Of a DNA stretch of 43,792 nt, positions 22,084 through 43,600 are shown one piece after another. Below the pieces are notes generated by a model. The model was not told the origin of the DNA, searched no databases, and saw nothing but the letters and a program-made list of their open reading frames with translations. Position numbers and translations under genes: made by a program. The number at the start of each line of letters is the position of its first letter. The first letter of the stretch is position 1. This DNA is from a virus, in IMG/VR virus record IMGVR_UViG_3300018424_000048, positions 1-43,792 of that record; one strand, written 5' to 3'.

Positions 22084-22099
22084 TTCTAATGAATTAGAA
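22084..22099 (-). promoter_or_regulatory. Small hairpin across the gp8 stop and next ribosome site
   Basis: TTCTAAT and ATTAGAA form a perfect 7-bp inverted repeat with a 2-base centre. The left arm contains the gp8 stop codon and the right arm overlaps the AGAAGAG ribosome site of the DUF4815 gene. Ribosomes finishing gp8 would open it, so it could couple translation. The stem is A+T-rich and the loop tight, so its stability is doubtful. Confidence 0.35.
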
Positions 22100-23626
22100 C
22101 TCAACAATAATCTTAATATCCTCAATCTGGTCGTTTGCACGACTGATGGGTCTCCTATTATCTATATAGACTACCTCACCCGTGTTTTTCTGAATCTCGG
22201 GGAAGGCATAACCTGCTGTAAACGCCATGCCCAAGTCATATTCAGTAGCATTAATAATTCTTGTAGACGTTCCAGGAGTAGCGGGGAAGTTAATATCGGG
22301 TTCTGCTGTAGCACCAGAAGATGCACCAGTGATTACATTACTTCCACTAAAATCACTCAACGAACCAGTAATTTCTGGAAAAATACCGTCAACGTTGTTC
22401 TGATAATATTTAAGAACCTTTGTAGTAGAGTTCCAAGAAATGACTCTACCCCTTGCTGTAATAGTTGTACCACCAACAGTTCTTTGTTGGGTGATAATTT
22501 CATCAGGGACAAAATTACCTTGGAACGATGGTGGGAAAATAACTGCTTTTGTAGCACTCAGAGTTAGATCGGTGGTCAGTTCTTCAGTTCCATACTTATA
22601 TGGATTTAGAAGTAGACCAATACGACGATAGTCATTATCAACAGGGAAGTCGCCAGAACCCTCAGAATAAGAAAGTTTAGCGTTCACCATTACTCGGTAT
22701 GCACCAAGTTCAAAGGAAGGATCGAAACCATGTCCACCCTGGGGAGGAATCACAACGTCGATAACACCACCAGTACCAGTACCGATACCATTAACTTGAC
22801 TGACGACGATCTTACCAAAGGTATAACCAGTACCACCAGAGGTCACCGTAGCATTAACAATACGACCACCATCAACAACGATAGAAACACGACCACCAGA
22901 ACCATCACCATTGATGGGAACATTATCAAATGCACCGTTGTTATATCCAGTACCTGCTGCTGTAATTACAACGGTATCAATTTCACCAGGAACAGCATTT
23001 CTCTTGATAGCATCATCAGTAAGTACAGGGATATACTCAGAAGAGAAAAACTTAAGAACCTGTGCAACAGGAATCGTGTACATAAACTTCCAGCGATAGC
23101 CGTCGGCGGTGGTTACGATTGAAGTTGATGTACCAGTTGGTTCAACAGTTGAAGGTTTACCGTTGGGGTCAGAGGGAGAGGTGCCATTGTAAATGCACTT
23201 ATATACCTGATAAGATGAATTTACAACATAGAAGTCTGCATCATACAGTCTGGTAGAACCAGATGCAGCAGTTTTAGTTGGTGAATAGTCATGACGATAC
23301 ATGTCATAGATGAAACCCAAACCACCAGTGGTCTTTTCTGGGGGAGTCCAGTCAATACGACGAACAACCTGAATCGTGTCGTTTGCAAGAACACGCTTCA
23401 AGGAGATCATATCATCGTATAGTTCACTATATTGTGAAAAACTATCTACGGGTGATGGTGGATCGTTATCAGATTCCCATGTTTGTGGTCTACCAATAAA
23501 GACGTACAATCTATCTCTAGAAGTACCTGCCACGAGGTCACTTGCCTCAGCATCGGGTCCTTCTAGGGAGGAGATAAACTTCTTGGCAGAATAAATCCTG
23601 AATTGATCAGTAAGCAGCGCCGACAT
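22094..23626 (-). CDS. gp8: Baseplate wedge protein gp8 with inserted beta repeats
   Basis: This is a baseplate wedge subunit. The core is recognisable from DRLYVFIGRPQTWESDNDPP (about 38-57), DDMISLKRV near residue 75, RRIDWTPP near 90, a DGYRWKFMYTIP stretch at about 175-186 and the end VVYIDNRRPISRANDQIEDI. T4 gp8 is 334 residues and this one is 510. The additions include a GGxGY segment (ITAAGTGYNNG and VTSGGTGYTFG, about 221-300) and an ITGASSGATAE segment near 432. Its promoter lies 33 bases upstream, with an AGGGA ribosome site. Confidence 0.92.
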   Translation of the reverse strand: MSALLTDQFRIYSAKKFISSLEGPDAEASDLVAGTSRDRLYVFIGRPQTWESDNDPPSPVDSFSQYSELYDDMISLKRVLANDTIQVVRRIDWTPPEKTTGGLGFIYDMYRHDYSPTKTAASGSTRLYDADFYVVNSSYQVYKCIYNGTSPSDPNGKPSTVEPTGTSTSIVTTADGYRWKFMYTIPVAQVLKFFSSEYIPVLTDDAIKRNAVPGEIDTVVITAAGTGYNNGAFDNVPINGDGSGGRVSIVVDGGRIVNATVTSGGTGYTFGKIVVSQVNGIGTGTGGVIDVVIPPQGGHGFDPSFELGAYRVMVNAKLSYSEGSGDFPVDNDYRRIGLLLNPYKYGTEELTTDLTLSATKAVIFPPSFQGNFVPDEIITQQRTVGGTTITARGRVISWNSTTKVLKYYQNNVDGIFPEITGSLSDFSGSNVITGASSGATAEPDINFPATPGTSTRIINATEYDLGMAFTAGYAFPEIQKNTGEVVYIDNRRPISRANDQIEDIKIIVEF

Positions 23627-23669: not shown

Positions 23670-25775
23670 TTAGAATACGTCGTCTCTAATTTCAACATCG
23701 TATTTAATTGATCGTATTCTCCAACTAGCACCAGAAGTGCTTCCAGTTAGTTTTTCACCCCCAAGAATTGCTTCAGCAATCGCTCCAGATCCACCTCCAC
23801 CACTAAAACTAATAGATGGAGGACTTGGGTATCCATAACCACCATTATCAACAGTAATGTCGTTAACCTGGTCAGCAAGTAGAACAGCAGTTGCAGTTCC
23901 TGCAAGAACTCCTGTTGTACCAATATTTACCGTAGGTGCAGAAGAATAGTTATTACCAATCTCCTGAACTCTAATATCTATGATAGTTCCTTTGTCTGAA
24001 AATTCATACAATTCACCAATCAGGGGATCTCCAGTGTCATATGGAACAACTGCACCAACTTGCAATTCTCTAGTATCTGTATTCCATGCAAGGACAGTTG
24101 CTTGAATACTAGAATTAGTTCCTGTTACAGTTTCTCCAACAATATAATTGATGCTGTTGAAGTAGGAAGAATTTCTATCATCCATTTTGATAGTAATAGT
24201 TGCAGCATGGTCAACACCCTCACTCAATTGACTTGCGTCAAAGATTGTAGATGATTTTGCGGGGAGACTTGAATCTTTGATGGTATCGCCAATTTGGAAT
24301 AGAGTGGTGTTTTGACCACCAACAGTCTCTTCAATACCATATAGAGTCGATGCTTTACCACCATCAAGATTGATCTGATTCTCAAATGATGTTCCAGTAT
24401 TAATGAGGTCTGGTAGACCATCACCATCACCATTGAGTTCATCATCGTCTTCAAATCCTCTGTCTACTTCAAAAGATGGAGGTTCTGTCAACTGAAACAG
24501 GATGTCTCCAACTCTATCAACAATGGTATGTGGAAACTCAATTGAATTACTTGAATCTGCTAGACCAGCATCAAAAACAATATTTGTCTTCTCAGCAGGT
24601 GAACCTGCATCAATAAATGCTAGTTCATCAACTTGGAAAACAACAAATAGTTCTCTTGTCTCAGGTTTCCAGTCGTATACAATAGCAATCTTACTAGATG
24701 CACTTTCAATGGCACGGATAACACGGTCTCCGATGTTAAACTCGTAAGTTGATATGCCATTTTCATCAACTTGAAGATCGTCAACAATTACACGTTGATC
24801 GTATCTAAAATTAATACCTCTCGTACAACCAGTTAGAGCATTATCATTTTTTCCTGTATAACGAATAAGTTCCTTCTCCAAAAGGAATACACCTGAACCT
24901 GGATAAGGATCCGTCGAAGATACATACACTGAGGTATCATCTCTAGCAACGTTTTTGGTGATCCCTGCAATATTATAGAACTCTGAGTTAAATGATTGTC
25001 TATTTCTAGAGACTTTCTTTAGTTTTACGTTTCTAGCAAAGACAACTCTAGGAGCACTAGTATAACCTCTACCTGGGTTATCAACAATAATCCTGGTTAG
25101 TCTTCCTTGATCAATCTCTGCTCGTGCTTTTGCACCTAGTCCACCACCACCTACAAGTAGAACATATGGAGCAGTTAGGTAAAATTGACCAGCATCACTG
25201 ATTGTAAAACCATCAACAATACCTTCAAGGTCAACTTCAGCAACACCTGCAGCACCAGCACCGCCACCACCATCAATTGTCAATGTTGGAGGTTCTTCGT
25301 ATCCAGTACCTTCTTTTAGAATAGCAAGACCAGTGACTGTTTTTGAAACAACTGCTGTAGTAGCACCAGTACCTTCTCCACCTTCAATAACTCCAGAAAC
25401 ATCATAAAATTGATTGTCTCCAGGTTGAAGAACTTTAATATAATCAACAGTTCCATCATCTCTCAGAACAACTTCACCTTTAGCAGGAACAGGTTCTTCT
25501 CCACCTTCAGGAATACTTGGTGTAAGAGTAATCCTCAAAGGATTATACCCTTCACCAGGGTCTACTACTTTTACAGCAACAATTTTTCCACTGTCATCAA
25601 TGACAGGATCTAATCGAGCATCTCGAATTGGTTGACCGCAATCAGATACGATCAAGGTCGGAGGAGACGATGCAACATAACCAGATCCTCCATCTTCAAC
25701 GATAACTGAGTCAACACCGAACTCATCATTGAAGACAGGTCTAATAACTGCGCCAGATCCAGGTACTACTGCCAT
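23670..25775 (-). CDS. Beta-repeat virion protein (701 aa)
   Basis: Residues 1-245 are almost all GGxGY/PP units (VEDGGSGYVASSPPTLIV, LKEGTGYEEPPTLTIDGG, VDNPGRGYTSAPRVVF), and another pair lies at about 600-660. In the middle is a module with LLEKELIRYTGK and TGCTRGINF (about 298-323), also seen in the two largest proteins of the window. A calcium-loop-like NGDGDGLPD follows at 448-456. The C-terminus ends with LTGSTSGASWRIRSIKYDV. No enzyme motif is visible. It is most likely a baseplate or fibre-associated structural protein. The ATG has no Shine-Dalgarno, which is odd for a late gene. Confidence 0.8.
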   Translation of the reverse strand: MAVVPGSGAVIRPVFNDEFGVDSVIVEDGGSGYVASSPPTLIVSDCGQPIRDARLDPVIDDSGKIVAVKVVDPGEGYNPLRITLTPSIPEGGEEPVPAKGEVVLRDDGTVDYIKVLQPGDNQFYDVSGVIEGGEGTGATTAVVSKTVTGLAILKEGTGYEEPPTLTIDGGGGAGAAGVAEVDLEGIVDGFTISDAGQFYLTAPYVLLVGGGGLGAKARAEIDQGRLTRIIVDNPGRGYTSAPRVVFARNVKLKKVSRNRQSFNSEFYNIAGITKNVARDDTSVYVSSTDPYPGSGVFLLEKELIRYTGKNDNALTGCTRGINFRYDQRVIVDDLQVDENGISTYEFNIGDRVIRAIESASSKIAIVYDWKPETRELFVVFQVDELAFIDAGSPAEKTNIVFDAGLADSSNSIEFPHTIVDRVGDILFQLTEPPSFEVDRGFEDDDELNGDGDGLPDLINTGTSFENQINLDGGKASTLYGIEETVGGQNTTLFQIGDTIKDSSLPAKSSTIFDASQLSEGVDHAATITIKMDDRNSSYFNSINYIVGETVTGTNSSIQATVLAWNTDTRELQVGAVVPYDTGDPLIGELYEFSDKGTIIDIRVQEIGNNYSSAPTVNIGTTGVLAGTATAVLLADQVNDITVDNGGYGYPSPPSISFSGGGGSGAIAEAILGGEKLTGSTSGASWRIRSIKYDVEIRDDVF

Positions 25776-25790
25776 TTTGGTATTTTTAGG

Positions 25791-25798
25791 TATTTATT
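25791..25798 (-). promoter_or_regulatory. Late promoter-like AATAAATA at the end of the protease gene
   Basis: The minus strand reads CTAATAAATACC, using the protease stop codon, only 15 bases before the 701-codon gene. An exact TATAAATA also lies 58 bases further upstream at 25849-25856, inside the protease gene. Either could serve the 701-aa gene. Confidence 0.5.
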
Positions 25799-27452
25799 AG
25801 GTTCTACGAATCCTAGGTCTAGGATATACAAAACCACTATCACGTCTATATTTATACTGAGCGGTTGGATATGCTTGACCATCATCTTGACGGATCTTAT
25901 AGAAATACAGGTATCTGTTATTAGATCCTGAACCAAGAGAAGTGTAGTCTCCAAAACCACCACCAGATGAACCTACTCGATTCTTAGTTGTGGATTGTTC
26001 AATCCAAGCAACAGCATCTGCCTGATTCAATGTTGGTTGTGATTCAAGAAGACATGCAAGATAACCACATACTTGCGGTGATGCCATACTAGTTCCGTCA
26101 ATAGAACCTAGTTTGTAGTTTGAATCTCTAGGATCATCAACTAGTGTGATACCAAATTCCGATGCTGCTCCACTGTTATACACAGCGGACACAATACTAG
26201 ATCCAGGTGCCCACACATCAACTCTAGGTCCATAATTACTGAAGTTTGATTTATACTCATCAGTAGTAGTACCAATGCTACCAACACAAATTACATTAGT
26301 ATCTGCACCAGGTGAAGAACCACGCATATGGTAAACATTACCAATACCGCTAACACTAACGTAGTTTTGGTTGTAATCGTTATCAGATGGGTTTGCAATC
26401 TGCCAATAAGAATTCCCTGCAGATCCAACCAGAATAATACCATCAGCGATAGCATCGTTCATATCCGCTTCTAGAGCAGCAACTCTTCCAGGAACATAAC
26501 TCAAGAAAGTATTGAATGGAACAGGAACACCGTTCTGCTCAAGTGCAGTCTTTTTGTCTGCATCATTAAGAGTTGTGAGGTTTACAACGCTTCCTCTATA
26601 ACCAACAGAGTTGATAGATGACAAGAAAATTTGCTGAATAGAATAACCCCAACTATTATTAACAATTGTAGGATTTCTTACCCCAGTTGTTGAATTGATT
26701 GGTTTACTGTTGTGCCATGCTCTAATATAGTCAAATATATACAACGCCCAGTCTCCTGTAGGTGCATTACTAGCAGGATATGCAAATTCAATATTGTAAA
26801 TGTTGGCATCTCGTGCCCAACCTTGGGTATTACCTACACATGTACCAGCAACGTGTGTTCCGTGATGACTTGTGAAGGGGTAATCATAGTCATAAGAACC
26901 TGTGGTGCTAATTCCTAGACCTGAACTATGTTGGAACCAATCATACTCAACTACTCTAGACCCTCCTGTACCGTCTACATTGACGGCAAACTCTGGATGG
27001 TCTGGGTTGATATGTGCATCAACAATAACAACGTCTACGTTCTTTCCAGAACCATTACATGAAATTGTTGCATTATACTCGGTAAACGATCCGTTAGTAC
27101 CCCAGTTTGCTTGGTTGGATCCTTGAATGACACTTGGTAGACCCCAGTTTTTATCATCCGAGTCAATAGTTGCACTTTTTTCAAAATCTCCTGTCTGAGT
27201 CCATGCAGGACTAGGGGTCAATCCCAAATCTCTAGGAACGTGTTCACACGACAACACCCTAGGATCACTTCTAACCTCTTCTGCTTCCTCTTCAGTCAGC
27301 ATATAATGAGTGTTCCTACTGATAGATCTCCTTACAGAACAAGAGACCTCTCTGTCGGGAATGTAAAGATTACCGCCAGGGGTCTCCATGTCATTGTAAA
27401 AATCTTCTAGGTCATCATAATTATGGAGAGTTACGATGAATTCTTGCATCAT
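25797..27452 (-). CDS. Subtilisin-family serine protease (peptidase S8)
   Basis: The 551 residues carry all expected S8 active-site motifs. These are Asp145 in VVIVDAHINPDHPEF, His197 in SHHGTHVAGT, the oxyanion Asn347 in LVGSAGNS and Ser455 in IDGTSMASPQV. The Asp motif is DAH instead of the usual D-T/S-G. Residues 1-75 resemble an inhibitor I9-type propeptide (MLTEEEAEEVRSDPRVLSCE). There is no signal peptide, so it would act in the cell or virion, not by secretion. After the catalytic domain (to about 495) comes a basic tail ending YPRPRIRRT. Its ATG overlaps the stop of the fibre-like gene (ATGA), so it is co-translated with virion genes. It is distinct from the T4 prohead protease gp21. 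Confidence 0.93.
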   Translation of the reverse strand: MMQEFIVTLHNYDDLEDFYNDMETPGGNLYIPDREVSCSVRRSISRNTHYMLTEEEAEEVRSDPRVLSCEHVPRDLGLTPSPAWTQTGDFEKSATIDSDDKNWGLPSVIQGSNQANWGTNGSFTEYNATISCNGSGKNVDVVIVDAHINPDHPEFAVNVDGTGGSRVVEYDWFQHSSGLGISTTGSYDYDYPFTSHHGTHVAGTCVGNTQGWARDANIYNIEFAYPASNAPTGDWALYIFDYIRAWHNSKPINSTTGVRNPTIVNNSWGYSIQQIFLSSINSVGYRGSVVNLTTLNDADKKTALEQNGVPVPFNTFLSYVPGRVAALEADMNDAIADGIILVGSAGNSYWQIANPSDNDYNQNYVSVSGIGNVYHMRGSSPGADTNVICVGSIGTTTDEYKSNFSNYGPRVDVWAPGSSIVSAVYNSGAASEFGITLVDDPRDSNYKLGSIDGTSMASPQVCGYLACLLESQPTLNQADAVAWIEQSTTKNRVGSSGGGFGDYTSLGSGSNNRYLYFYKIRQDDGQAYPTAQYKYRRDSGFVYPRPRIRRT

Positions 27453-28588
27453 GATTCTAACTGAATAACGGTTAAGGTGACGGTAATTGCTGCAGAACTT
27501 GCTGCTTTGTTAACTACTTTGAGATAAATGTTTGTGCTTGGAGTAATATCATTATTAAATCCAATAGTTGCTGGAGTCATAATCTGAGACTGAGAACCAG
27601 TCGTAATCAACTCAGCAATAACACCGCTGCCTGGCAATGGATCGTCAGTTTCTGCTCTAGTTGCATCGCTAAGTCTGCTACCAGTGTCTGTGTAAATGGT
27701 AACCCATGCAGCACCATTAACTTCAATGTTGAGAAGACCGTAGGACTTATATCCAATAATAGTTAGGTTTTCTGATGATCCAGAAGCAAGTGAAGACGTG
27801 GTTGCAGAGAATGTACCTCTGGACTGGAGACCACTACCACTACCGCCACCAGATTGGTCAGTGTCATTAACCCATGCAGTACCACTCCACTTCAGAACCT
27901 GACCTGATGTAGGAGTTGTGATGGTTACATTTGCAAGATCTTGAATGTCGCTAGGGACCGTTGGTTTATCAGCAAGGTCATTCCAAGAACCAGAGAAAAT
28001 TGATGGTTTATCGTTTAGATCATTCCAAGAACCACTAGTAGCAACATTGGCAAGAACGGGTTTACCAGTCAGATCAGCATAAGCACCTGAGAACAACGAT
28101 GGCAGGTTGTCTAGGTCGTTATAACTGTTTGATGTAGCAACAGTACCCAGAGTGGGTTTATTGAGAATCTGAGCGACTCCAGTGGTAGCAGTCCAGTCAG
28201 AACTTACCTGAGCAGCAGGAATAGTTGGAGCTCCTGTTAGGTCTCCGTAAGAACCACTAGTTGCTACGTCAGCAAGCAGTGGTTTATTGATGATTCGAGT
28301 AGCACCTTCTGTTGCTAACCAGTCTGACGGTTGCTGTGCTGCAGGAATTGTGGGGGTATCTGATAGATCATTATAAGACAATCTAGCAGGAACAAATGCA
28401 GTTCCATTAGAACGCAAGACAAACTCTGCAGTGCTTGCTGCATCGATGTCAACCAGGATGTTGCTACCATCTCCTAGTTTTGAATATGCATCCAAAAACA
28501 TGGAGTTGATCTTTTGACCACCCGACCTTAAAGTATCACCTGTTCCGTCGTTGGCGATAGAGCCAACATTGATAGTTTGTCTTGCCAT
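27449..28588 (-). CDS. Short fibre-like protein with NDLxDKP repeats (379 aa)
   Basis: The N-terminus RQTINVGSIANDGTGDTLRS with GGQKINSMF is a common attachment domain of marine T4-like fibres. Residues about 70-220 hold at least six repeats of the form SYNDLSDTPTIP / SWNDLNDKPSIF, with ADVATSGS linkers, typical of fibre shafts. After a glycine-rich linker (SGGGSGSG) a C-terminal beta domain follows (LNIEVNGAAWVTIYTDTGSR onward to IQLES), a likely receptor- or glycan-binding head. The ATG has a TAGGAG ribosome site and its own late promoter. Confidence 0.85.
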   Translation of the reverse strand: MARQTINVGSIANDGTGDTLRSGGQKINSMFLDAYSKLGDGSNILVDIDAASTAEFVLRSNGTAFVPARLSYNDLSDTPTIPAAQQPSDWLATEGATRIINKPLLADVATSGSYGDLTGAPTIPAAQVSSDWTATTGVAQILNKPTLGTVATSNSYNDLDNLPSLFSGAYADLTGKPVLANVATSGSWNDLNDKPSIFSGSWNDLADKPTVPSDIQDLANVTITTPTSGQVLKWSGTAWVNDTDQSGGGSGSGLQSRGTFSATTSSLASGSSENLTIIGYKSYGLLNIEVNGAAWVTIYTDTGSRLSDATRAETDDPLPGSGVIAELITTGSQSQIMTPATIGFNNDITPSTNIYLKVVNKAASSAAITVTLTVIQLES

Positions 28589-28612: not shown

Positions 28613-28620
28613 TATTTATA
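28613..28620 (-). promoter_or_regulatory. Late promoter (TATAAATA) built from the giant gene's stop codon
   Basis: The last codons of the giant gene read GTA TAA and, with the next bases ATA, form an exact TATAAATA 24 bases upstream of the fibre-like gene. It would drive that gene, the protease and possibly the 701-aa gene. Confidence 0.75.
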
Positions 28621-31600
28621 CCCCGTCAAACGTTGCTTCAGTGTTATCGAACGTACCAACCGCAGAGTCGAACGATGCTCCACCCTCGATCTCAGGTACA
28701 TCCGTGTCAACCAGGATTGATGGATAAACATATCCACTTCCTCGATTCACAACGTCGATTCTTGCAACACCCACAAGTGCCTTGATGGTTGAGTCAAATC
28801 CAGTTGCAGAGTTGATCGAAACCGTAGGTCTTGAGGTATAACCATCACCACCTGAGGTCAACTGTACATCGCTGAGTCTGCCTGTCTTCAGTCTTGAAAG
28901 TGCAGATGCATTTCTACCGAAGATAGAACCCAAATAATCAAATGTGACCAGTGAGTTGGAGGATTCAACCAGTGCGACAGTTCTTTCTTCATCCTCACCC
29001 TCGATCTCTAGTTTATCGCCAGATTCGATTGGAGGAACAACAGTTGCTGCCACAACGTCAGCATCAGAACCAATGTACGAGTAAGCAACGAATGTACTTC
29101 CTGCGCGAGGAATCTCAGCAAAGTTGATTCTAGAACCAACAATCTCAAACGCGACTCCAGGTTCTTGAATAACACCATTGAGAGAAACAATAATGTTGTT
29201 CTCTGGTCTAATCGTAGTTGACTGCGAACCTTCCGTAATCGTTAGGGAGTAGAACACATCATTCAACTTGAGATTGAACGAAGAACTCAAAGAGTCAAAG
29301 TCAAATGCAATATTATCCAACTGTCTCAGTTTACCCATGTAAACCGCGTGGAAGGATGATCCCAATTCGGGTGCTTCTGTGAAAGAGATGGTGTCGGAGA
29401 ATGCTGAGAACGAATCGCCTGCAGGTTGTAGAACACCGTTGACAAATGTCAGCAGATAACCGTCAGGATCTGGTAGGTATGGAGTACCATTGTTGATAGT
29501 GATTTTGAAGGAAGTTTGAGTTCCATCAAATCCTCTGAAGGATCTTGTGATCCTACCCTTAATCTCGCTGGATTCCACAACAGAACTTCTATATCCAATA
29601 CCGATGATCTGAGCATATTTGTTGAATGTACCCAGTACACCACTCAGATATACTCTGTAGTTCTGACCAATTTGCTGAACCCTTTCGACAGTACCAAACG
29701 CGAGGGAGTCGGTTTCGTATACCTGTAGAACTTCGCCATAACCTTCTGGATCAGTACCAACGGTCTCGTAATATGCAACATATTCACCAACGGAGAAGTT
29801 TGTACCAGAGAGGTTTTGGTAATAGATAATTTGATCACCATTTTCCTCAACCTGGTCGATAATTACTGCGCTCTTACCTTGGATGATTCCACCCAAGACA
29901 TTAACGAGTGTTCCGCCCTTAGTGAAGGTTTCTTGAGACGCAAATGGATAACTAACACGGATTTTATAGATCTTGGATGTTTTAATCACATCACCAATGC
30001 CTACCTGAACACCCTCATATGATTGGAATGTATCAATGTAAATATCGCTGATGGAAGAGTAAACAACTCTAGATACATCCAGAGAACCTTGAATAAACTC
30101 TGTTTCCAGTGTCAACTTACCACCAGCATTTGATGTAATAGGTGCTCTGTTGTTTTCAAATCCAATAATATCAAACTCAGAAGAAGATCTTGAAGATCTC
30201 GCGTAATCATCATCAGTAAAGGAACCGACCAGATCAATAACCTGCATTCTATCTGCGACTGCATCTACAGTTGCCTCAAATGTCGTAGTGTCATTTCTTA
30301 GAGTATTTGTCGCACCGATTGTACCATTTGTTATAATCACGTCAATGTATGAGACATTCTCTCGGTAATCGACTGAGAACACTGTGCAAGTATTAGTTGT
30401 AGAAGGAACAATTAGTTCATCACCAAAACTAAATGTCTGCAATGGATTAGTAAATGTAATCTCAAATCTCTTGATGAGATGTTTAATATATGCTCTATTT
30501 GAAGTGATAGAAGAAATTTCTCCTGTTTCTGTAGAAGTTGTTCCAAAGATGTAATCACCTGTAGATAGACCACCTTGGATTGGCGTATAAACTTCGCGTT
30601 GAACATAACTGATAGAGGGAACACTAATTGCATTCGATGGTAGGAAATTATCAATGTATACTGGATTATTCAAAGTTCCAATAAGAAGATCCATTTCATT
30701 ATCGATGAATCCCTGAAGTTCGGAAAGAAGTTCCGAGTCTGCCGCGAGTGTAATGCCTGCCTCCTCATAAGGATAGTATCCAGAAGCAGCAGCAGGAGAA
30801 TCAAGATCTTGTTGGATTGCTTTCTGCATCAATTCATTCACTCTACTGTATGCATAGATGCTCTCTACCAATTCACCATCTAGAGAACTGATTGTTCCTG
30901 TTGCACCGTCGATGTAAGCCGTCGCTGCATCATACATTGCAGAATTTCCAAAGGTAAGTAGATCATACACAACTGCATCAATGATATAACCCATGTCTCT
31001 GAGACACTTAGCATTTCCACCAGGAATCGAGAATCCTTGATAATTATTCAGAGTAAGTTGTAGTGCCTCGTACTTAATATACTCTTTGTTGAATAGTACA
31101 AGTTTTGCTGCCTCGCGATATGCACGATTCTTATTACTATCAAGTGTTCTGGTGATACCAGAAAGACTTCCAGTAGAAATAGCAGTATCTAGAATCGCGA
31201 AGAGAGTTGTGATTGCAGAAGCAACGTTTGCACATAGAGGAGCACCTGCAGGATCTGCAGTAATCGTGCCGTCAGTGACCTGAGTCTCGGAAGATCCAGT
31301 GATAGTGATTGCCTCGTTTCTCATGGCTTGAATTGCCATGTCTCTTGCTTGCTCGAATGCATATCTAGACTCGGTTTCTTCACCACTGAGGAACGAATCA
31401 TAGATGTAGATTGCTGCAGCATCATATGTCTTATGGTTGCCACCATTTCTCAAGTCGAAGCAAACCTGATCAAGAACATCCTTGATGTCATCGATACATG
31501 CCTGGTTTCCAGTTGGAACAGTGAATGTTGGGAACTGGGTGAGCATTCTGTCAACAGCAACCTCAGCAATCAGAGTCTTATTGGACTCGATGAGGTTAGC

Positions 31601-34600
31601 AGCATCATAATATCTGCTGCTGCTGTCTGCACTGTTAGCAATCAGAGTAGGACCAAAGACATAAATCAACTGATTGTTGAATGTATTAACAGAGTCTGGA
31701 TTGCCAGTGCTGAATGGTGCGATTGTAGGTAGAATTACTTGACCAGAGGCATCAGCATAGACAGTAGAGGTTACCTTTCTCCAAGAGTTTCCAGCATCTT
31801 CAACGGTGACAGGAACGTCGAAGAATTCACCAACTGGCAGGTTTCCGCTGCCAACAAAGAAGAAGAATGAATCATTGGCATCATTAGGTTTGACGCCATC
31901 ACCATCCCAATAGAATCCCATGATTCCACTGGATGCCTGTTGGGTGTAGAAACTAAAGGTGAAACTTTGACCAGGTTCTGCAGTTGGAAGTGCTGCTGTA
32001 GGGGGAGTTAAGGCAACCTTTGTTCCACTGGTAGTTGCAGATGCTCTGATTCCATAACCGCCAGAACCAGTAAATCCTGTAGGAAGTGCTCTGTTAGCGG
32101 TCTCCATATTGATTGCACCAGTGGTCTGCCAGGTAGTCATGTTCTGGTAATCTGCTAGGAGGTTGACTTCCTCAGTTGCCAGATCTCTTTCTGGTAGTAG
32201 AACCTGAATTGCTTTGGTGAATAGGGTATCAACTGTACCTTTAATAATACGACAGTCGCCACCATAAGTACCATCATCTAGAGTGATGCTAGTATCTGTG
32301 TATTGTGCTTGTGAATTATATGGAGAGGTATATGTACCGCCACCATCTAGTTCCCAGTTGTTAAGTGCCAACTGACATAGTTCGCTTGCCTTCTCCCATG
32401 CAAAAATAGTAGGAAGAAGTTCATCCTTAACATGCTCAATAGAACCATCATCTGTAGTATTAACGTAATACTTCATTGATGTGATAATATTCTCATCACC
32501 GCCAGCAACCAGGTCGCCAATGATTGAAGGAATAATATACTCGTAAATATCTCTTCTGCAGACAGTCGTATCACCATTTGGATAATCAAATGCTCTGAAT
32601 GTGACACCATTCAATTCAAACACAAACTCATCTTCAATATATGCAACTACTTCATCTGCAATAAAGGATCTATTGAACCAGATAAGGTCGCCAGCATCCC
32701 TGTACACATCTCCAGTAGGAGCAATGATGTCATTAACTTTGGTCCAGAGAGTATCGATTGTAGACTTGACATTTGCACATCCACCTGGATCATTAGTGAT
32801 ATTGATGGGTGGAATTGGGAATCTTGTGGTATATAGTGGAGACTCACTTAGATCACCAGAAACCGCATCTTGGCAGAGTTGACTCATCTCTTTGTGAGTG
32901 AAGACACTCTGTAGGACTTGCAGATTAATGAATCTCAGACCACCTGTTGAAGAAATATAGAACTCACCTGCCTTGACAGTATTGTAATCACCACCATCTC
33001 TAAGGTCCTTAATGACAGCAGCAAGGATTAGAGATAGGTCCAACTTACATCTTTCAGAACCTGCACCAGAACCATCTTCATCGCCAGGGATGACTAGATC
33101 TGGGTATCTTGCTTTCATTCTGCCATGTGCTTCATCCACGATATATGCAGAGTTCTGCTGAATTAGATTTGCAGCATCTCTATATCTGTGTTGTGCATCA
33201 GTGTAGAACTGGTCTGTAGTGATCGTCTTGGTTGCAGTATCAATATCTTTGACAACCAGAGGAACTGTAAGTTGAGTAGAAACAACTGCCGAAACACCAC
33301 TACCATTTGAAATAGTCTCATCAGTGGTAAATGTTCCAGTTGTTGCACCAAGATATAGCGTCTTCAGACCATAATTAATACCTAGAATAGTTGCAGTTGC
33401 AGAAGAACTACCACCAGTGATAGTGTCATTAAATCCAAAGTTGCCGCCAGCAAGAGTGTGATATGACATCTTTCTGACTTCTAGAGTCTCGCCAGATGTA
33501 AATGCTGCAGACTCATTTCTATAACCAACCTTATAATTTTGGATTAGATCCCCAATGGATAGAGTATTGGTTGCATTTTCATAATCGATGATAATGTTCT
33601 CAACCTCTTCTGCCTCAAGGAAGTTGCCATTAACTTCCAGAGTAGCATCATCTAGAGAAGCAACTTCAATCGAACTCTTACTGATGTCATCAATAATAGC
33701 GTTTGGATTTGTTGGAGAAACAATTCTGTTGAACAATAGACCAAAGAATTCACTAGGATCACTGATGGTAACCGATGATGTTGGTTCGATCGTGGTCGAA
33801 GTTAGGATTCTGAAGACCGCGTTTGAAGTCTGACCAGTAATTACGTCCAAAGATGTGAATGCAGTCTCAGGAGTTGTAGTTTCTGCAATCAATCTTCTTG
33901 TATCTGGATACCAGAAGAGAACTCTACCTGCAGCACCGCTTGGAGCAGTAAATGTTTCGCCCTGCTGGAAACTTCCCTGAGTTTGAGGGTAGTTATCTGT
34001 GGTATCAACAACAATGTAAGTATTGGTATCTCTATATGGAGTAATACCAGTAATTCTAGCGATAATACCCGTCTGAGCAGAGATGATGAAGTCATCAATA
34101 TCCATATCGAGCAGACCAGCAGGAGAATCGTATGTACCAGAAGTCTTACTAATAACGATCTGATTTGTTGTCAACTGGTTTGCAGTATCAAGATTGATTT
34201 CTTCAACAACTGCCGTCTTATTACGGAGGTTAGTAATTTTCTCTCTGAACTGATAGACATTTGCATTAGTATTTTCAGTGGTTGTGGTTACATTACCACT
34301 GAATCCAGTTGCAGATACAATCAATGATTCACCATTAGAGAATGTTCCAACCACGTTGAACACTACGATCTCGGAGGTTGTAGAACTGATTACAGTAGCA
34401 GAAGCACCAGAAACCAGACCTCTAATCGTATTTCCTAGTAGTGGGAAGATACCACTGGTGTTTGTAACACCGATTGTGGTGGTTGTGAGGAACTGGAGTT
34501 CAAGATTTGCATAACTTACTTTAGTAGGTGCTGAAGGTGGTTCATTGAAGATAATACTACCAGACTGAACCTCGAAAGCAGTTCCTGCTGCTTGAGCAAT

Positions 34601-37600
34601 ACCATTGATCACAATCATAAATTGTGATGCCTGAGCAATAACAGGTGTCCCATCAATGGTTAGTGGGAATACCGTTCTTTCACCATCAAACAAGTTAGCG
34701 ATGTTATCAATTTTCTGTACGACAGAGGTTAGAATTTCCTCCGAAGAAGTTAGTCGCTTGTTTCTGAATAGTACCTGTGTGTTGTCAAATTCACTATAGA
34801 CTGGTTCAACCAAAGCGAAGTTGTCGATATTGGAAACAACAGAACTTTCAACAAGATTAACACTCTTTGTAAGTTCAAAGTCAGTTCTATTGGTAATACC
34901 TTTACCACCACCAACGATACCAATTTCACCGAAGATCTTAAATCCAGCAGGGTGAATATTGTCAATAACCGTCTTCTTCCATTGGTCGATAGAAATAGGA
35001 CTCTTGATATTGTACGAGAACAACTGATAGAGGTAAGAGTCTTGAACTTTCTGAACAATTTCACTGGGTTTACCGATGTCATCGATAAACTTACCAGATG
35101 TATTAGTAATTGAGTCCACTTCAAGAACACCCTTAGCAATACTAATTTCACCGATAGTACCACTTGCCTTAGAGATCAGACCGTTAACTCTTTGACCAAT
35201 CTCAAATGTACCAGTGTAGTTAATGAGTTTGAGCAGTCTAGGACCAATCTGCCAACCAGAGTTTGTTGATACATAACCGACTGCGGTAGCAGTTTCGATT
35301 GTATCGCCTTGGAATACAGTCTCACCAGAAAGGAATCTGGCGGTTTCTAGTGTTGCTTCTGCAGCACCACCAAATGATGCAGTCAGAATGATTTGTCTAC
35401 CTTGACCACCGTTAACGAAGTTGATGAAACTTCCTGTCTCTGCATCCTGAGGAGTTAGTGCAATTCTCAACTGATCATCTTCTAGACCTGCACCCTCACC
35501 AGCAACCGCATAGTAGGTTTGACCTGCAACCAAGAAACCGAATGAGGTTAGTGGGAACTCTTGTCCTTCGCCAAGGTCTTCAGTTTCAAAGGTTACTTCT
35601 GCACCATTTTGAATGCCGTGTGGGAAGGAGAACTGGAACAGACCTAAGTCAAGGTTTACAACGTAAGTAAAGGATGACTTCAGTTCAATTAGAGGTTCGG
35701 TAGTATAACCAGAACCAGGATTCTTAATGGTAATACCATTGATTCTACCGTTTCTAAGGATTGCTTCTGCCTCAGCACCAGTACCACCGCCACCAGTAAT
35801 TACAACTTCAGGAGGTGAAGTATAACCAGTACCAGGATCAGTGACCTGAATGCCACTTAGAACACTTGTACTAGTCAACTGTAGGTTAACAGGGAATGTA
35901 ATTTCTGGTCTTAGTGTGTAGTCTGGCGTATAATCAAAACCAAAGTTGTTGTTCTTCAGATTCTTGATCTTACCAATTCTGTTGCCAGTGACGAAAATTG
36001 AAGCACCAGTACCAAAAGGAGGAATAACAACCTTAAGTTCAGCACCAGAACCTGCAAGTGTGGGTCCTAAGATTCCATCAATAGCATCCACGTCAATAGA
36101 TGCAGTGGTATATCCCTTACCAGGATCTGTGACAGTAACCTCGACAATTTGACCTGCAGGATCTGTAGTTCCATCAACACGAATAGAAACCTTACCGCCA
36201 GTACCGTCTCCATCAATAGGAACACTGAAATATTCACCTGCTGCATATTCAGTACCAGGACTTACAATTTCAACTCTCTCAATTTTTCTAGCAGACTGAA
36301 TTGTATCGATAATTGGTAGTTTTTCATAGAAACCACCGCCACTAACCAGTCTTGCTTGTGCAATAGGACCAACTGCCTTAGGTGAAGAAGTTGTGTAGTC
36401 AGTAGAGGATGCAATTGCTGCTTTTTCAGGATCAAATTGGATTGGGAACTTAAATACATTGGCACCAGAGGTGATTGTTGCCCCTTCTAGGTCAGAGATT
36501 ACAAATTCGCCAATATAAGGACTCTGAACAACGTCGATGTAAGAGTTCTCACCAACAGGTTTGTTCTCAGTTAGTCTTGATGGGTCTGCATAGTAAGAAA
36601 TGTTCTCAACATCATCGGTCACCTTAAATGAGATGTATGGAGAGTTGCCTGGTTCATCAAGACCAGGAGTACCTCTTCTAACAATGTTTTTGAAGGTATA
36701 CTCAATTCTATTAAGGTTATCTTCGTAGAAAGATAGATAATGACCGTAGTTTGAAGAATTTGATAGGTCGAATGTATATTGCTGACCAGTAATAAACTTG
36801 AAGATAGGATGCTTCACATATGTCGTGAATGTTGTTCCTGAGGCAATTGCTGCACCAGGAGTGCTGTCAGCATTGTATAAGAACTCTCTCTGATTCAGAA
36901 TTGTTTCAACTGCATATGTTCCTTCTGCCTGAGCATAGTTAACGCTATTGTCAATACTGATAACATCACCAGCATTTAGATAGTGAGAAGTTGCAGTAGA
37001 AACATAGAGTTGATTTGTCAGTGCCTGAGCAGTTGGTTGTAGAATCTTTTCTAGATTTGCAGTGACAGAAATCTGAGTTACCGATGCTAGACCACTAATG
37101 GTCAACTCAGTGTAATCTGAGTTGAATGAGAAGTAAGATGAACCTAGAGCATAGACAGAACCCCTAGAGAATTCTGATCCTGCAATAATTTCATCAATTC
37201 TTACAAGATAGTCATCTTCACTATATGGTTTGAACTTAGCAAACTCATCAAGATTATTAGTTCCTCCTGCAGGAGCATTGTAATTTGTCAAATCAATTAC
37301 AAATGTACCAGGAGTGGTGTTAACTACGCTTGCAAATAGGTAATCTTCAATGTCATTTACAACACTATCAGAAGATCTAATTTCATGAGTATCATTTGCC
37401 CAAGTGCCAACAATTGAAGATAGGTAAATCTTGTTGTCAGAACCAAGTCTCATAACTTTAGCAGATGCTACCGTTCCTCCAACAGAATTTACTTGAGTTA
37501 GAGTCGTACCAAGATTAAACTTAAATGACTGATTAAGAGTAAACTCGTATACATTATCAACTTTGCTAGTAGTAAATACCTTGAAGAAGAACTTATCAAA

Positions 37601-40600
37601 TGCCTTTGCATTAAATAGTGGTTTTCTACCACCAGGTGAAGGAATGGTAGCAGTTCTGGTTGACCAAGTATTTGTAGTAAACGTTGGTGATTGTGAGTCT
37701 TGAGTAAGTACAGTTGGCAGATCAGAGTAATCCAAAACTTGGAAACCATCACCTGCTAGTGTATATGTACCATTAGTAGAACTTAGGTCTGCGACAGTTG
37801 CTGATGATAGAGTTCTGTTTAGGGTGATGTTAGAGTTAGAAAGTGCAATATCACCAATTCTTACAGCATCTGCATTCTTGTCAAATTTAACAAGTAGAGA
37901 ACCACCAAGTTCAAAGTCATAAATGGTTTGTGCTACGGTAGGTGCAGTGAATGTATCACTATAGACGAGGTAATCACTATATCTAATATCATCAACCTGC
38001 ATTGGATGCGAGTTGGCAGTTGTAGTAGAACCCCAATCCATAGTTGTGGGATTCATGTTATCAGCAATCTCATCAATAGTTGCTGCCTCAGTTCCATTCC
38101 AGAACACTTTGTAAGTATTAACACCAGCAGAAACGGACTTGGTTAGAGCAATATGTACCCAACCAGAAGTTAGATCAGTAATGAAGGTCTGTGCCGTTGT
38201 ATCATCAGTGATAGATCCAGTATTGTTGGAAAGACGTAGTTTACCGTAGTTTCCAGTGTCAAGACTGTCTGCACGAAGTACGACCTTGACCCCAGTTGAT
38301 GCATCAAATGCATGGATGAGAATAGGTTCACCAGTAGTAGGAGCACTACTCATCTTAATCCATTGCTCAACTGTAAAGACAGTAGAATCTAGAGTTAGAC
38401 CAGTAGCACTAATTTTTGCATCCTGGGTGATCTCATAAGAACCAGAACCAAACTTAGCATCAACCTCAAGGTTGACAGTTCCACTTGTAGTGAGGTCTGC
38501 TGCTCTGCCAACTGCATCTGTATATGCAGATTCTGCGTTGAACAAGAATTGAGTTCTGTTAGGATGTACTTGAGCAGCAATAACTGGATCTCCAGAAACA
38601 TCACTGAATACTGCAGTATTCTCAATACCTTCTTCATCACTGTCAGACATTAGTTTGTTAACCTGGACCACAGAACCGTCATACTTCAGTTTAGCAAAAT
38701 ATGAGATCTTATCTCCAGTAGAAGTGATTGCAGATACACCAACGTTCAGTACATCAAATTGATCATAGTTAACGGGAATGGACTTAACAGAAGTGGTATT
38801 GGGGAAAGTATATGACTTGTAGAACTTAACTGTTGCTGAAGAGTCAATCTTGACAACTGCAATTTTATTTCTAGTATTTCCAGTGGTTTCATGGTATGTA
38901 CCAACAATGTACATTTCATCGTATTCATCGATGACTGCAGACATGTCTTCTAGATCAAGACCAGGGAACGCAATTGTCTTAGACCAGTTGATAGTAAATC
39001 TATTACCAATAAATTCTGCTTTTGCAACGAGAATATTGGTCAGTGCCTTACCAATCAAATAAACACCATTGTCTGATCCAACTTTGATCTGGAAGAACTG
39101 ATCTTGAGTTGATAGTGAAGTTACCTTTCTTCTAGTAATTGTTAGACCATCTTTATCAACATACATCAACATTGCGTCATATGTATGCCCTGAGTTGGTG
39201 CTTGTATAACCAGAGATTACAACTCCCTCACCAAACACTGCAACATCGGTTCCATAATCTTGTCTGCTAACACCAGAGATACCAGCAAAACCTCTTTGCC
39301 ATCTGAAAGTTGCATCAGTTCCTGTAGCATTTTCTTCCCATTTGGCAAGAATAATGTCAGGATTAAATGCTGCTGTTAGAGTTTCATTTGGATTCGTATT
39401 ACCTAGAACATAAATGTTGCCCTGAACCTTGGTTAGTGAAATAAACTCAACAGATTTTGTCTGTAGAGAAGGGACTGTCTGACTCAAAGATTTGGACCAA
39501 ATCAAGAAACCTTCTGAGTTAAACTTCATGACAACAGCATGAGTGTTTCCAGAAGAATCTACAGACTTACCAACTGCATAAACATTTTTACTTTCGCTAA
39601 GGATTTTAGTGATAGTAAGACTTTCGCCATTAACGACTAGTGTTCCATAGTAGTTTGATCTTGCCTGAACCTGAGGAGGTGTAATTCTGATTCTAGGAGG
39701 ATTCTCAGAAGAATATCCAGAACCAGAGTTTAGAATATTAACTCTATCAATAACACCAGTTGTAGTAGGTGTAGTGGAAACTACTGCTCCACTACCTTCT
39801 GTTGTCTCAATCTCAATAACTGGAGGAACATCATCGTTATAACCAATACCAGTTCTATCAACATGAACTTGCTCAAGACCTGAAATTGTAATCATGTTGA
39901 TGGTCTTGCTGGTAGGCTCCATCTGAGGAGTGGTGTCAATAAAGACAGTATCACCAACTTCAAGGTTGTGTGCTCCCGTAGTTGTAATTACACCCTTATA
40001 AGAATCGGTTGCAGGACTATATTCGTAAGTGTAAGAGGATACATCATTACCTTCAATTCTAGAAACTTGACCAGATGCACCATATCCAGCAGTATTAGTA
40101 TCATCAAATACAAGAACATCACCAACCTGATAGTTGATACCTGGGTTTTCAATCAAGAAACCGCTAACTTTTGCATCTTCAAACTTGGTTGTAGTAGAAA
40201 CTTCAATGTCAACTTTAGATGCAACGTCAATCTTGGGAAAGTAATCAAAGATTTGTAGTTTGTTCTCTTCAAACATGATGTTGGGGTCATCAATCTCGTC
40301 TTGACTGATAATACCATCTTTGTTCTCATCTTCTACCTCGAAGAGTAGGAAATTGCCATCTTCTAGAGTAATTGCATTTGTTTGTTCATTTGCTGCTCTT
40401 TCAATGTCAACGTCAACATTCTCGAAAGGATCTCTATATCTAACAATACCTGTAGGAATATTTGACTGAACAGCAAACTGATCTAGATTCCACTTATCGG
40501 GAACAGAGTAGAAGTCTGGTCCAATGATGTATGGGAATGATGCATTGCCAGCAGCATCAATACTTACAAAATATGCATAAGTACCATCTGGATACTCAGG

Positions 40601-43600
40601 AGTTTTTGTAAAACGACCATTATATTGATCTAAGAAGATCGACTCACTCTGGAATGTGAATTCATAGTCTTCAATAAATTCACCAGCAGGATATTGAGAA
40701 AGAAGAGGACCCTGAGTACGAACAGGGTTAGGATTGGTGACCTCATCATAAACAAGATTAGACTTTAATGCATAACCGCTCTTAATTTGACCAATTTCAC
40801 TATTAATATTAGTTGGGTCAGTCAAACCATATGGACCATAGATGGGATTACCATCAAATGCCCAACCAATAATAGGAGAATGCTGAAGACCATCAACTTT
40901 CTCCATAAGAGACCCACTCATGACTTCTAGGTTATCACCTAGAACAAATCTTAGTTGAGTTGGGTTTGAAATGTGTGCGTATTCACCACCAAACTGTTTA
41001 TTGAAACCTTCAAAGATAGAACCTTGAGCATAATCAAAATTCGTGTTTTCCTGTAGGTTGTATGTCCACTGGAAAATATTTGCGGAGAAACTTGCACCTT
41101 CACCAACAGATACGAGGCGAATTTGTGTATTATTAGAACCGTATCCAATACCTCTATTAAGAATGGTGATCCCAGTAACCCTACCAGAATCAACACCTTC
41201 AGTAGAAATGGTTGCCTTTGCAATTGCACCGAAACCATCGCCAATAATTTCTACTTCTGGTGCAGTTGTATAACCAGCACCAGAAGCAATAACTGCAATG
41301 TTTGAAATTCTGCCATTGCTGACATATGCTTCAGCAGCAGCACCATTACCGCTACTTAATGTGATAGTTGGAGAAGAAGTGTAATCTTCACCAGAATTAG
41401 TGATTACAACACTATTAATTGCGCCTCGGACAACTGCTTTGGCAGTTGCACCAACCCCGCCACCACCAACAATGTTCACCGTTGGATTTGATGTAAAACC
41501 AGTACCAGAAGTCTTAACAAGAATTCTTGAAACAACTCCGTTGGTAATGATTGCAGTAGCAGTAGCACCATCGCCACCACCACCTGAAATTGAGACTAGA
41601 GGAGATGTCTTGTATCCAGAACCACCAGCAGTAACCTCAATATCTACAATTGAACCATTAACAACTGCTCTTGCAGTTGCACCAGTACCACCGCCACCAC
41701 TAATTGTTAGGGATGGAGGTACAACGGCATCATACCCCGTACCGCCATTAGTAATGTCAATGCTGGTTAGAGGACCATATGATAGTTTATTTGAAGACTT
41801 ATAGTTCCAAATACTGACACCATTAACAAATGAACCAATTGGACCTGGTTTAGTTGCTTCTTTTAGTGAGATCGTAGCAGGGACTTTTGGGTATCTGTTA
41901 AGTTTTCTTTGGTTTCCTGGAAGTAGCGCGGTCCCAACGAAAGGCCCAATTTTGTAATTAGGAATACCAGAGGAGGCAACATATACATAATCCGTATTGA
42001 AAAAGGTATTCTGGACGTTGGAAGCGAATCTGCTGATTGATGCGTTGATTGATGTTGTGTCACTCTTTCCTTTGTTAAGGTCAATTGAAATTAGAATATT
42101 GCCCTGAGGAACAATGTTTGCAGGAGCAGGTAGTTCGTATGTAAATGTTCTTCTAGTAGGAATTGAAGTAACAAGGAACGAACCGTTATAAACGATTGGG
42201 TTTGCACCGTATACAGTAACTTGATCCCCGACAAGTAGACCATGAGGATCTTCGGTCTCGATAGTTTCTGTTCTATTTGAATCACCACCAAAGTTTACCG
42301 TAGAAACTTGCAGTAGTTTCTTAACGTTATACAACCAACTATCAAGAAGACGAGTATCTTCTGTAGAACCTAGTTTTGCAATCGTAAGTTTATCGCCAGG
42401 TAGATAATATCTACCATCATCTGTTAATACGGTCTTGTTTGCCTCAACAATACCCAATACAGACAATACAACTTCATCGGCAGTGTCCTTGTTAACATAG
42501 ACAAAGAAGTTTGATTCGCAAACAGTTGCAGGATCCCACTCTCCTCCAACACCACCTAGATTGATACCTCTAGTACATTCAATAAATTGAGTTAGAGACT
42601 TTTCCTTATAACGGATGAGTTCATTACCAACAATGACCTCACCGTTTCTTTCTGGCCAACCAATAGTTGAGTCAACGGTAATAATGATGTCGTTTGGACC
42701 AAGAGGTTCTGCAAGTTTAGTTTTATATGGAATCGTAAACTCGCCAACAATAGACTCTTCAGATAGTGTTAGTTCGTAAACATCAAATCTTGGAGTTTGG
42801 ATTGCGATATAGTTTTCAATCAGTGCTTCGGCAGATTTGACATTAGTGTCAATATCACTCTCTACTTGCTCCAGAAGACCATTTGATAGATCTCTAGGAT
42901 CTCCAGAAACTAGTCTCGCTCTGAGTACGGTGTCTACAGACCAACTTGCAGCAGATGGTTTGATGAGTTGATCTTTTGGATATGAGATTTCAACCGCAGC
43001 AGAATATAGTAGATTGAATAGATACTTGACAGCAAATTGCGTGCCTTTAGATGCATAAAAATCTTTTGCTGTTGAAAGTACGTTAGCAATATTAATATTA
43101 TTAAAGTCAATATCTGGCAAACCAGGCATATACTGATTTGCAATTCTTCTTAGAAGTGTTTTAAGAAATACGGAGTCTAAACTACTTACAGATACACCAG
43201 AAGTATGATCAGAAGCAACAGATTGGTTTTCAGTTGAAAATACAGCACTATTATCTTCAGTATAACCAGTAATACCGCTAACACCTCTACTACAGTTCAA
43301 GAACTGGGATTTTTGGTATCCACGACCAGGACTGACAATCTTAAATCCTGTAATTTCTCCATCACCAACAATTGCAGATGCTTTTGCTCCAACAGGTACT
43401 GAGATAAAGACTTTAGGTGGATTTACCGATGAATAACCCGTTCCAAAATCTGTGATGTTAATATCAATAATTTGACCATTGAATACAGTTGCCACTGCTG
43501 TAGCACCCGATCCTCCAATAGGATTTCCAATATTGTCTTTTCTATCGTCTACAATATAAACACTAGGAATATCCTCATAACCAGTACCACCATCCAATAG

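Follow-up and report, generated by a model that had tools for sequence, protein, structure and literature searches.

A subtilisin-like protease encoded directly behind a tail-fibre gene in T4-like cyanophages as a possible fibre-tip enzyme

What does a subtilisin do among the tail genes of a virus? This question is raised by the 43,792-nucleotide stretch analysed here (the window; IMG/VR record IMGVR_UViG_3300018424_000048), which comes from a genome close to Synechococcus phage S-H38. On its minus strand, a gene for a 551-residue protease of the S8 (subtilisin/proteinase-K-like) family (25797-27452) follows a tail-fibre gene and lies near genes for a T4 gp8-like baseplate wedge protein (22094-23626, minus strand; Pfam and PHROG matches) and a second baseplate wedge protein (PHROG 708; 23670-25775, minus strand). 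An earlier note on this sequence had proposed that the enzyme either cuts a giant baseplate protein or fibres during assembly, or is carried on the tail tip and digests host surface proteins on entry. The second proposal fits best, and we somewhat favour the reading that a subtilisin, kept inactive by its pro-region, sits on the tip of the fibre and attacks proteins of the host surface.

The product of the gene matched PF00082 (Peptidase_S8) at residues 136-493 (E 1.2e-27; 97.4 bits, Pfam curated cut-off 21.8) and PHROG 9158 (E 1.2e-106), an entry which PHROGs lists as of unknown function. The ratio dN/dS of 0.088 in comparison to S-H38 indicates purifying selection, and the open reading frame is therefore not a chance occurrence. 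Asp145 (codon 27018-27020), His197 (26862-26864), the oxyanion-hole Asn347 (26412-26414) and Ser455 (26088-26090), all on the minus strand, stand in the D-H-N-S order typical of S8 enzymes, at the places which the earlier note had given for a complete protease. All four residues were invariant in the window and 116 complete IMG/VR relatives (117/117), and they were kept in 46 of 48 sequences of a second set, which overlaps in part with the first. They were also kept at about 25% identity in S-T4, Sf-CH8, S-TIM54 and P-HM2. The protease is thus apparently active, as judged from its intact catalytic site. Confusion with the phage tail-sheath domain that bears the name 'subtilisin-like' in Pfam was excluded by the PF00082 match and the intact catalytic residues.

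The two exceptions in the second set belong to a subtype in which Glu replaces the catalytic Asp and the other site residues are intact (L069:7329-9584, which is SXBG_00005 of S-CAM1, and L184:1484-3295). The S-CAM1 protein is annotated as tail fiber protein.

An AlphaFold2 model built from 24 window and IMG/VR rows gave a proteinase-K-type fold. Residues 84-521, the catalytic domain (25890-27203, minus strand), aligned to proteinase-K-type enzymes with a Z score of 34.7 and 2.2 Å over 275 residues, in a model of modest confidence (mean pLDDT 62, core about 80). This fold is common to peptidases S8 such as aqualysin I, ProteinT and the Meiothermus keratinase (Z about 34), with which the phage protein also shares the order of Asp, His, Asn and Ser and a probable N-terminal pro-region. 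In contrast to these enzymes, it is phage-encoded and coupled to a fibre, and it possesses about 150 extra loop residues and a basic C-terminal tail. It also has no signal peptide: a hydrophobicity check of the protease revealed neither a signal peptide nor a membrane segment, in agreement with the earlier note. The conserved basic tail (25797-25889, minus strand) ends with VYPRPRIRRT and the stop codon; the consensus of the relatives is RPTSGxVYPRPRIRRR, and this part has low confidence in the structure model.

Since the catalytic domain aligns from residue 84, a pro-region of about 83 residues fits the N-terminus (residues 1-83; 27204-27452, minus strand; boundary inferred from the start of the alignment). 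Residues N-terminal to position 84 are well conserved among the relatives, and 10 of 28 N-termini weakly matched the inhibitor I9 family (PF05922, best E 0.003). The I9-like propeptide claimed before is weakly supported by these relatives, whereas the window's own N-terminus gave no PF05922 match. A search of an I9 profile against solved structures returned only chance matches to T4 lysozyme. On the sequence evidence, the pro-region is likely I9-like.

The gene itself is already known, and relatives are annotated as protease. The S-H38 copy is 96.6% identical and carries the name 'subtilisin-like serine protease'. Matches occurred in 47 phage records, almost all of them T4-like cyanophages, and at least 593 relatives were confirmed in IMG/VR. 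The 'subtilisin-like serine protease' proteins of S-H38, S-WAM2 and S-H9-1 and T4-GC 292 of P-SSM2 belong to the same family and are likewise encoded behind a fibre gene; these copies have been named by domain only, and their function and the fibre pairing are absent from searchable papers. Sullivan et al. (2010) mentioned an S8 peptidase in P-HM1 and P-HM2 without a role (PMC3037559), and no paper on a fibre-tip subtilisin was found in the open-access literature. What is new is the context of the protease, i.e. its constant pairing with a fibre gene that ends in a particular C-terminal domain (CTD). An origin from host genomes was also considered and rejected: six matches turned up in bacterial and archaeal genomes, all on draft or metagenome-derived contigs that are likely phage.

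The cassette's giant neighbour, an open frame (28616-43792, minus strand) with 5,058 amino acids, runs off the window and matches the 'baseplate wedge initiator' of S-H38 (16.5 kb gene), so that the >5,000-residue baseplate protein described earlier is indeed there. This gp7-like protein was found in 362 phage records (155 over ≥ 80% of the query), the protease in 47. In S-RSM4, S-WAM2, S-H9-1, Sf-FR1 and the ACG-2014 phages, the protease is located near fibre, tRNA and talC genes and the giant gene lies elsewhere. A place inside the baseplate operon holds for the lineage of S-H38 and S-CREM1 but not for the family, which is mostly found near talC, tRNA and fibre genes, and a family search gave no constant baseplate-operon location, since most protease-bearing isolates have the gene elsewhere. 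Because the giant protein is far commoner than the protease and usually not its neighbour, a dedicated role of the enzyme on it is unlikely, and the cleavage proposed before finds no support in distribution or synteny.

The constant neighbour is instead the fibre gene (27449-28588, minus strand; 379 amino acids; Pfam and PHROG matches), whose stop and start overlap with the protease gene (ATGA, 27449-27452, minus strand) is present as the earlier note had described. The fibre starts with a T4 gp9/10-type baseplate anchor (residues 3-45; 28454-28582, minus strand; PF07880, E 2.8e-10), which was present in 15 of 18 partner fibres. It ends with the CTD (residues about 255-379; 27449-27826, minus strand), which is always kept beside the protease: wherever the upstream gene of an environmental virus locus could be read (128/128), it was a fibre gene with this domain at its end, lying directly 5' of the protease gene at a distance of -11 to +4 nt from fibre end to protease start. 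The CTD comprises about 105-125 residues and the rest of the fibre is variable, with fibres of up to 1,573 amino acids. Among 73 distinct complete fibres, the CTDs matched in 2,628/2,628 pairs, the fibre bodies in only 545 of these. The domain is predicted to be a jelly-roll (pLDDT near 90). A fold search gave weak matches to viral jelly-rolls, among them the HFTV1 turret and cyanophage Pam1, from which no function follows for the CTD. A scan for promoters and terminators yielded sites no commoner than in shuffled sequences.

In the reverse scan from the CTD side, the domain stood at the C-terminus in 92/92 matches. The next gene was readable for 88 (four had none) and encoded an S8 protease in 62 cases, an S-CAM1-type S8 protein in four, a member of a second family in 21 and another protein in one; S8 proteins (66) and the second family (21) thus account for 87/88 CTDs. 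Both scans were seeded from the window family and returned the best matches, and these proportions describe the sampled loci. The siphoviruses P-SS2, S-CBS2 and S-CRES2 possess the CTD and no protease. Proteins of the second partner family have 608-776 amino acids, start like MAVTKTEYLVNGGNTGW and showed no Pfam match (L077:4963-7266, L071:7323-9620, L075:7324-9654, L070:7317-9143 and L068:708-2678).

In a tree of 151 CTDs, which rests on few columns and has moderate support for its main split (88/94), the partner class changed 4 times, in comparison to 24.9 times in shuffles, and 21 of 22 second-family CTDs clustered together. Phages with both cassettes (S-H9-1, ACG-2014i, L168, L170-L172, L181 and L195) carry one CTD in each clade. 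That the subtype of the CTD tracks the type of the partner is compatible with docking specific for the partner; the same pattern could result from co-inheritance alone.

A comparable arrangement is known from Tfa of phage Mu and gp38 of Salmonella phage S16, accessory proteins which remain at the distal tip of the fibre (PMC7289586). The protease gene has a similar position, immediately 3' of the fibre tip in all 128 loci. Its product matched PF00082 and S8-related PHROGs only and neither Tfa nor gp38, in sequence or domain, so that the comparison refers to the way of working and membership is not claimed. In the favoured reading, the two genes would form a tail-fibre cassette, fibre first and subtilisin second, whose coupled translation would unite both products. 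The fibre would be anchored in the baseplate by its gp9/10-type N-terminus and expose the jelly-roll CTD as its tip, and the I9-like pro-region would hold the subtilisin silent in the cytoplasm. We infer that the protease docks on the CTD and rides on the virion until the pro-region is released. It would then cut host surface proteins, which may weaken attachment, give access to the membrane or release progeny from debris. Support comes from the fold match, the catalytic residues, the obligate gene pair, the tracking of CTD and partner and the virion annotation of one distant fused relative; docking, pro-region release, proteolysis and the nature of the substrate are what the model would add. 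More tentatively, and with a probability somewhat below even, the cassettes of aquatic T4-like phages may constitute a modular system of exchangeable tip proteins on fibres with a partner-specific docking domain, in which one tip, an active pro-inhibited subtilisin, digests proteins of the host surface during host recognition, sometimes beside a non-protease tip in the same virion.

If placed in this way, the protease would resemble enzymatic tailspikes (depolymerases such as LKA1gp49, PMC5701251) as a tail-borne enzyme on the host surface, but its proposed substrate is a protein instead of a glycan and the enzyme is a separate polypeptide. A tail-fibre subtilisin in at least 593 aquatic virus sequences would represent a new phage means of handling protein surfaces such as S-layers and outer-membrane receptors, and it would give a family listed without function a proposed role. 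To our knowledge, known tail-borne enzymes mostly cut sugars or peptidoglycan.

The main rival of a fibre-tip enzyme is a maturation protease, which would act during assembly, trim either the partner fibre (in its CTD or its linker) or a different protein of the tail, and then leave or stay as a passenger. Cleavage of the partner fibre is possible: its gene is translationally coupled to that of the protease, the enzyme without signal peptide would be expressed in the cytoplasm, and control by a pro-region suits an assembly trigger. However, because the second, non-protease family pairs equally tightly with the same CTD, this domain is not just a substrate of the protease. Among cyanophages with a common core tail, the enzyme also has a patchy distribution, and its inserts of 40-430 residues resemble host-range more than assembly variation. 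We therefore regard maturation as rather unlikely. T4 itself encodes a prohead protease, gp21, which belongs to an unrelated family and acts in the head, not in the tail.

Evidence from virions is available for one member of a distant S8 clade (P-SSM2, S-SCSM1, S-T4), whose members are also encoded behind fibres. In S-SCSM1, the protease domain lies within a 1,411-aa protein with laminin-G/ConA-like regions, which is annotated as virion protein, as is the fibre upstream of this fusion. The label is also carried by NMNAT, ORF213 and ORF214, which were named as detected in the mass-spectrometric study of this virion (PMC9602691), and it seems to mark such detection; with 48 labels counted in comparison to 45 proteins in the paper, it is only a close proxy. 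The peptides could moreover derive from the non-protease part of the fusion protein. ORF231, a CTD fibre, and its second-family partner ORF232 are labelled likewise. So is the prohead protease, a homologue of the T4 serine protease gp21 and a maturation enzyme, and virion presence alone thus does not exclude a maturation role. For the CTD-ending fibre ORF087 of P-SS2, 11 virion peptides were reported (PMC2784084). In the virion study of S-CREM1 only 14 proteins were found, and no protease is named in its main text.

A structural use of the subtilase fold, which would help to fold the fibre tip or cap it with catalysis being incidental, is improbable. Fibre chaperones and accessory proteins such as Tfa and gp38 are typically encoded right behind the fibre, and the S-CAM1/L184 subtype has Glu in place of the catalytic Asp, but no other sequence deviates at the four site residues, which a pure scaffold would not need.

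We give a still smaller chance to a link by recombination only, in which the CTD and the downstream gene are swapped as a cassette by homologous recombination and their products make no contact. A conserved block beside variable fibre bodies is the expected product of such swapping, a crossover upstream of the CTD could yield co-inheritance of CTD and protease, and this alone would align their types. Against this stand the distant clade, which retains the order of fibre and protease with a different tip domain, and the phages in which the protease is fused to further structural domains. A protease for host takeover or lysis in the cytoplasm, merely co-expressed with the late genes, would agree with the missing signal peptide, but it is barely credible for a gene that is always located beside structural genes and whose product, in some phages, is joined to large proteins carrying a virion annotation.

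The large inserts, together with the lectin-like, virion-annotated fusion and the fibre-tip coupling, agree best with a tail-tip protease at entry. The inserts occur in long relatives at a few positions of the scaffold, or as C-terminal extensions, and look like host-range variation; that a conserved catalytic scaffold varies in this manner points to encounters with changing hosts. In inserts of about 320-430 residues after query residue 295, seen in many environmental relatives (L187, L186, L177, L225, L226 and others), no known domain was identified.

The fibres of the distant clade (L006, L007, L008 and L009) end in a conserved tip domain of about 100 residues with the motif IQSQKV, and profile comparison showed no relation to the CTD. 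Finally, both partner families contain, at varying places, a mobile cupredoxin-like module, which is absent from the ORFs of the window. It was found at residues ~588-667 of the S-H9-1 protease (L077:8386-10392) and in L223, L225, L018, L071 and others. With a His and a CxxHxxM motif it possesses the ligand set of type-1 copper sites and is a candidate for copper binding.
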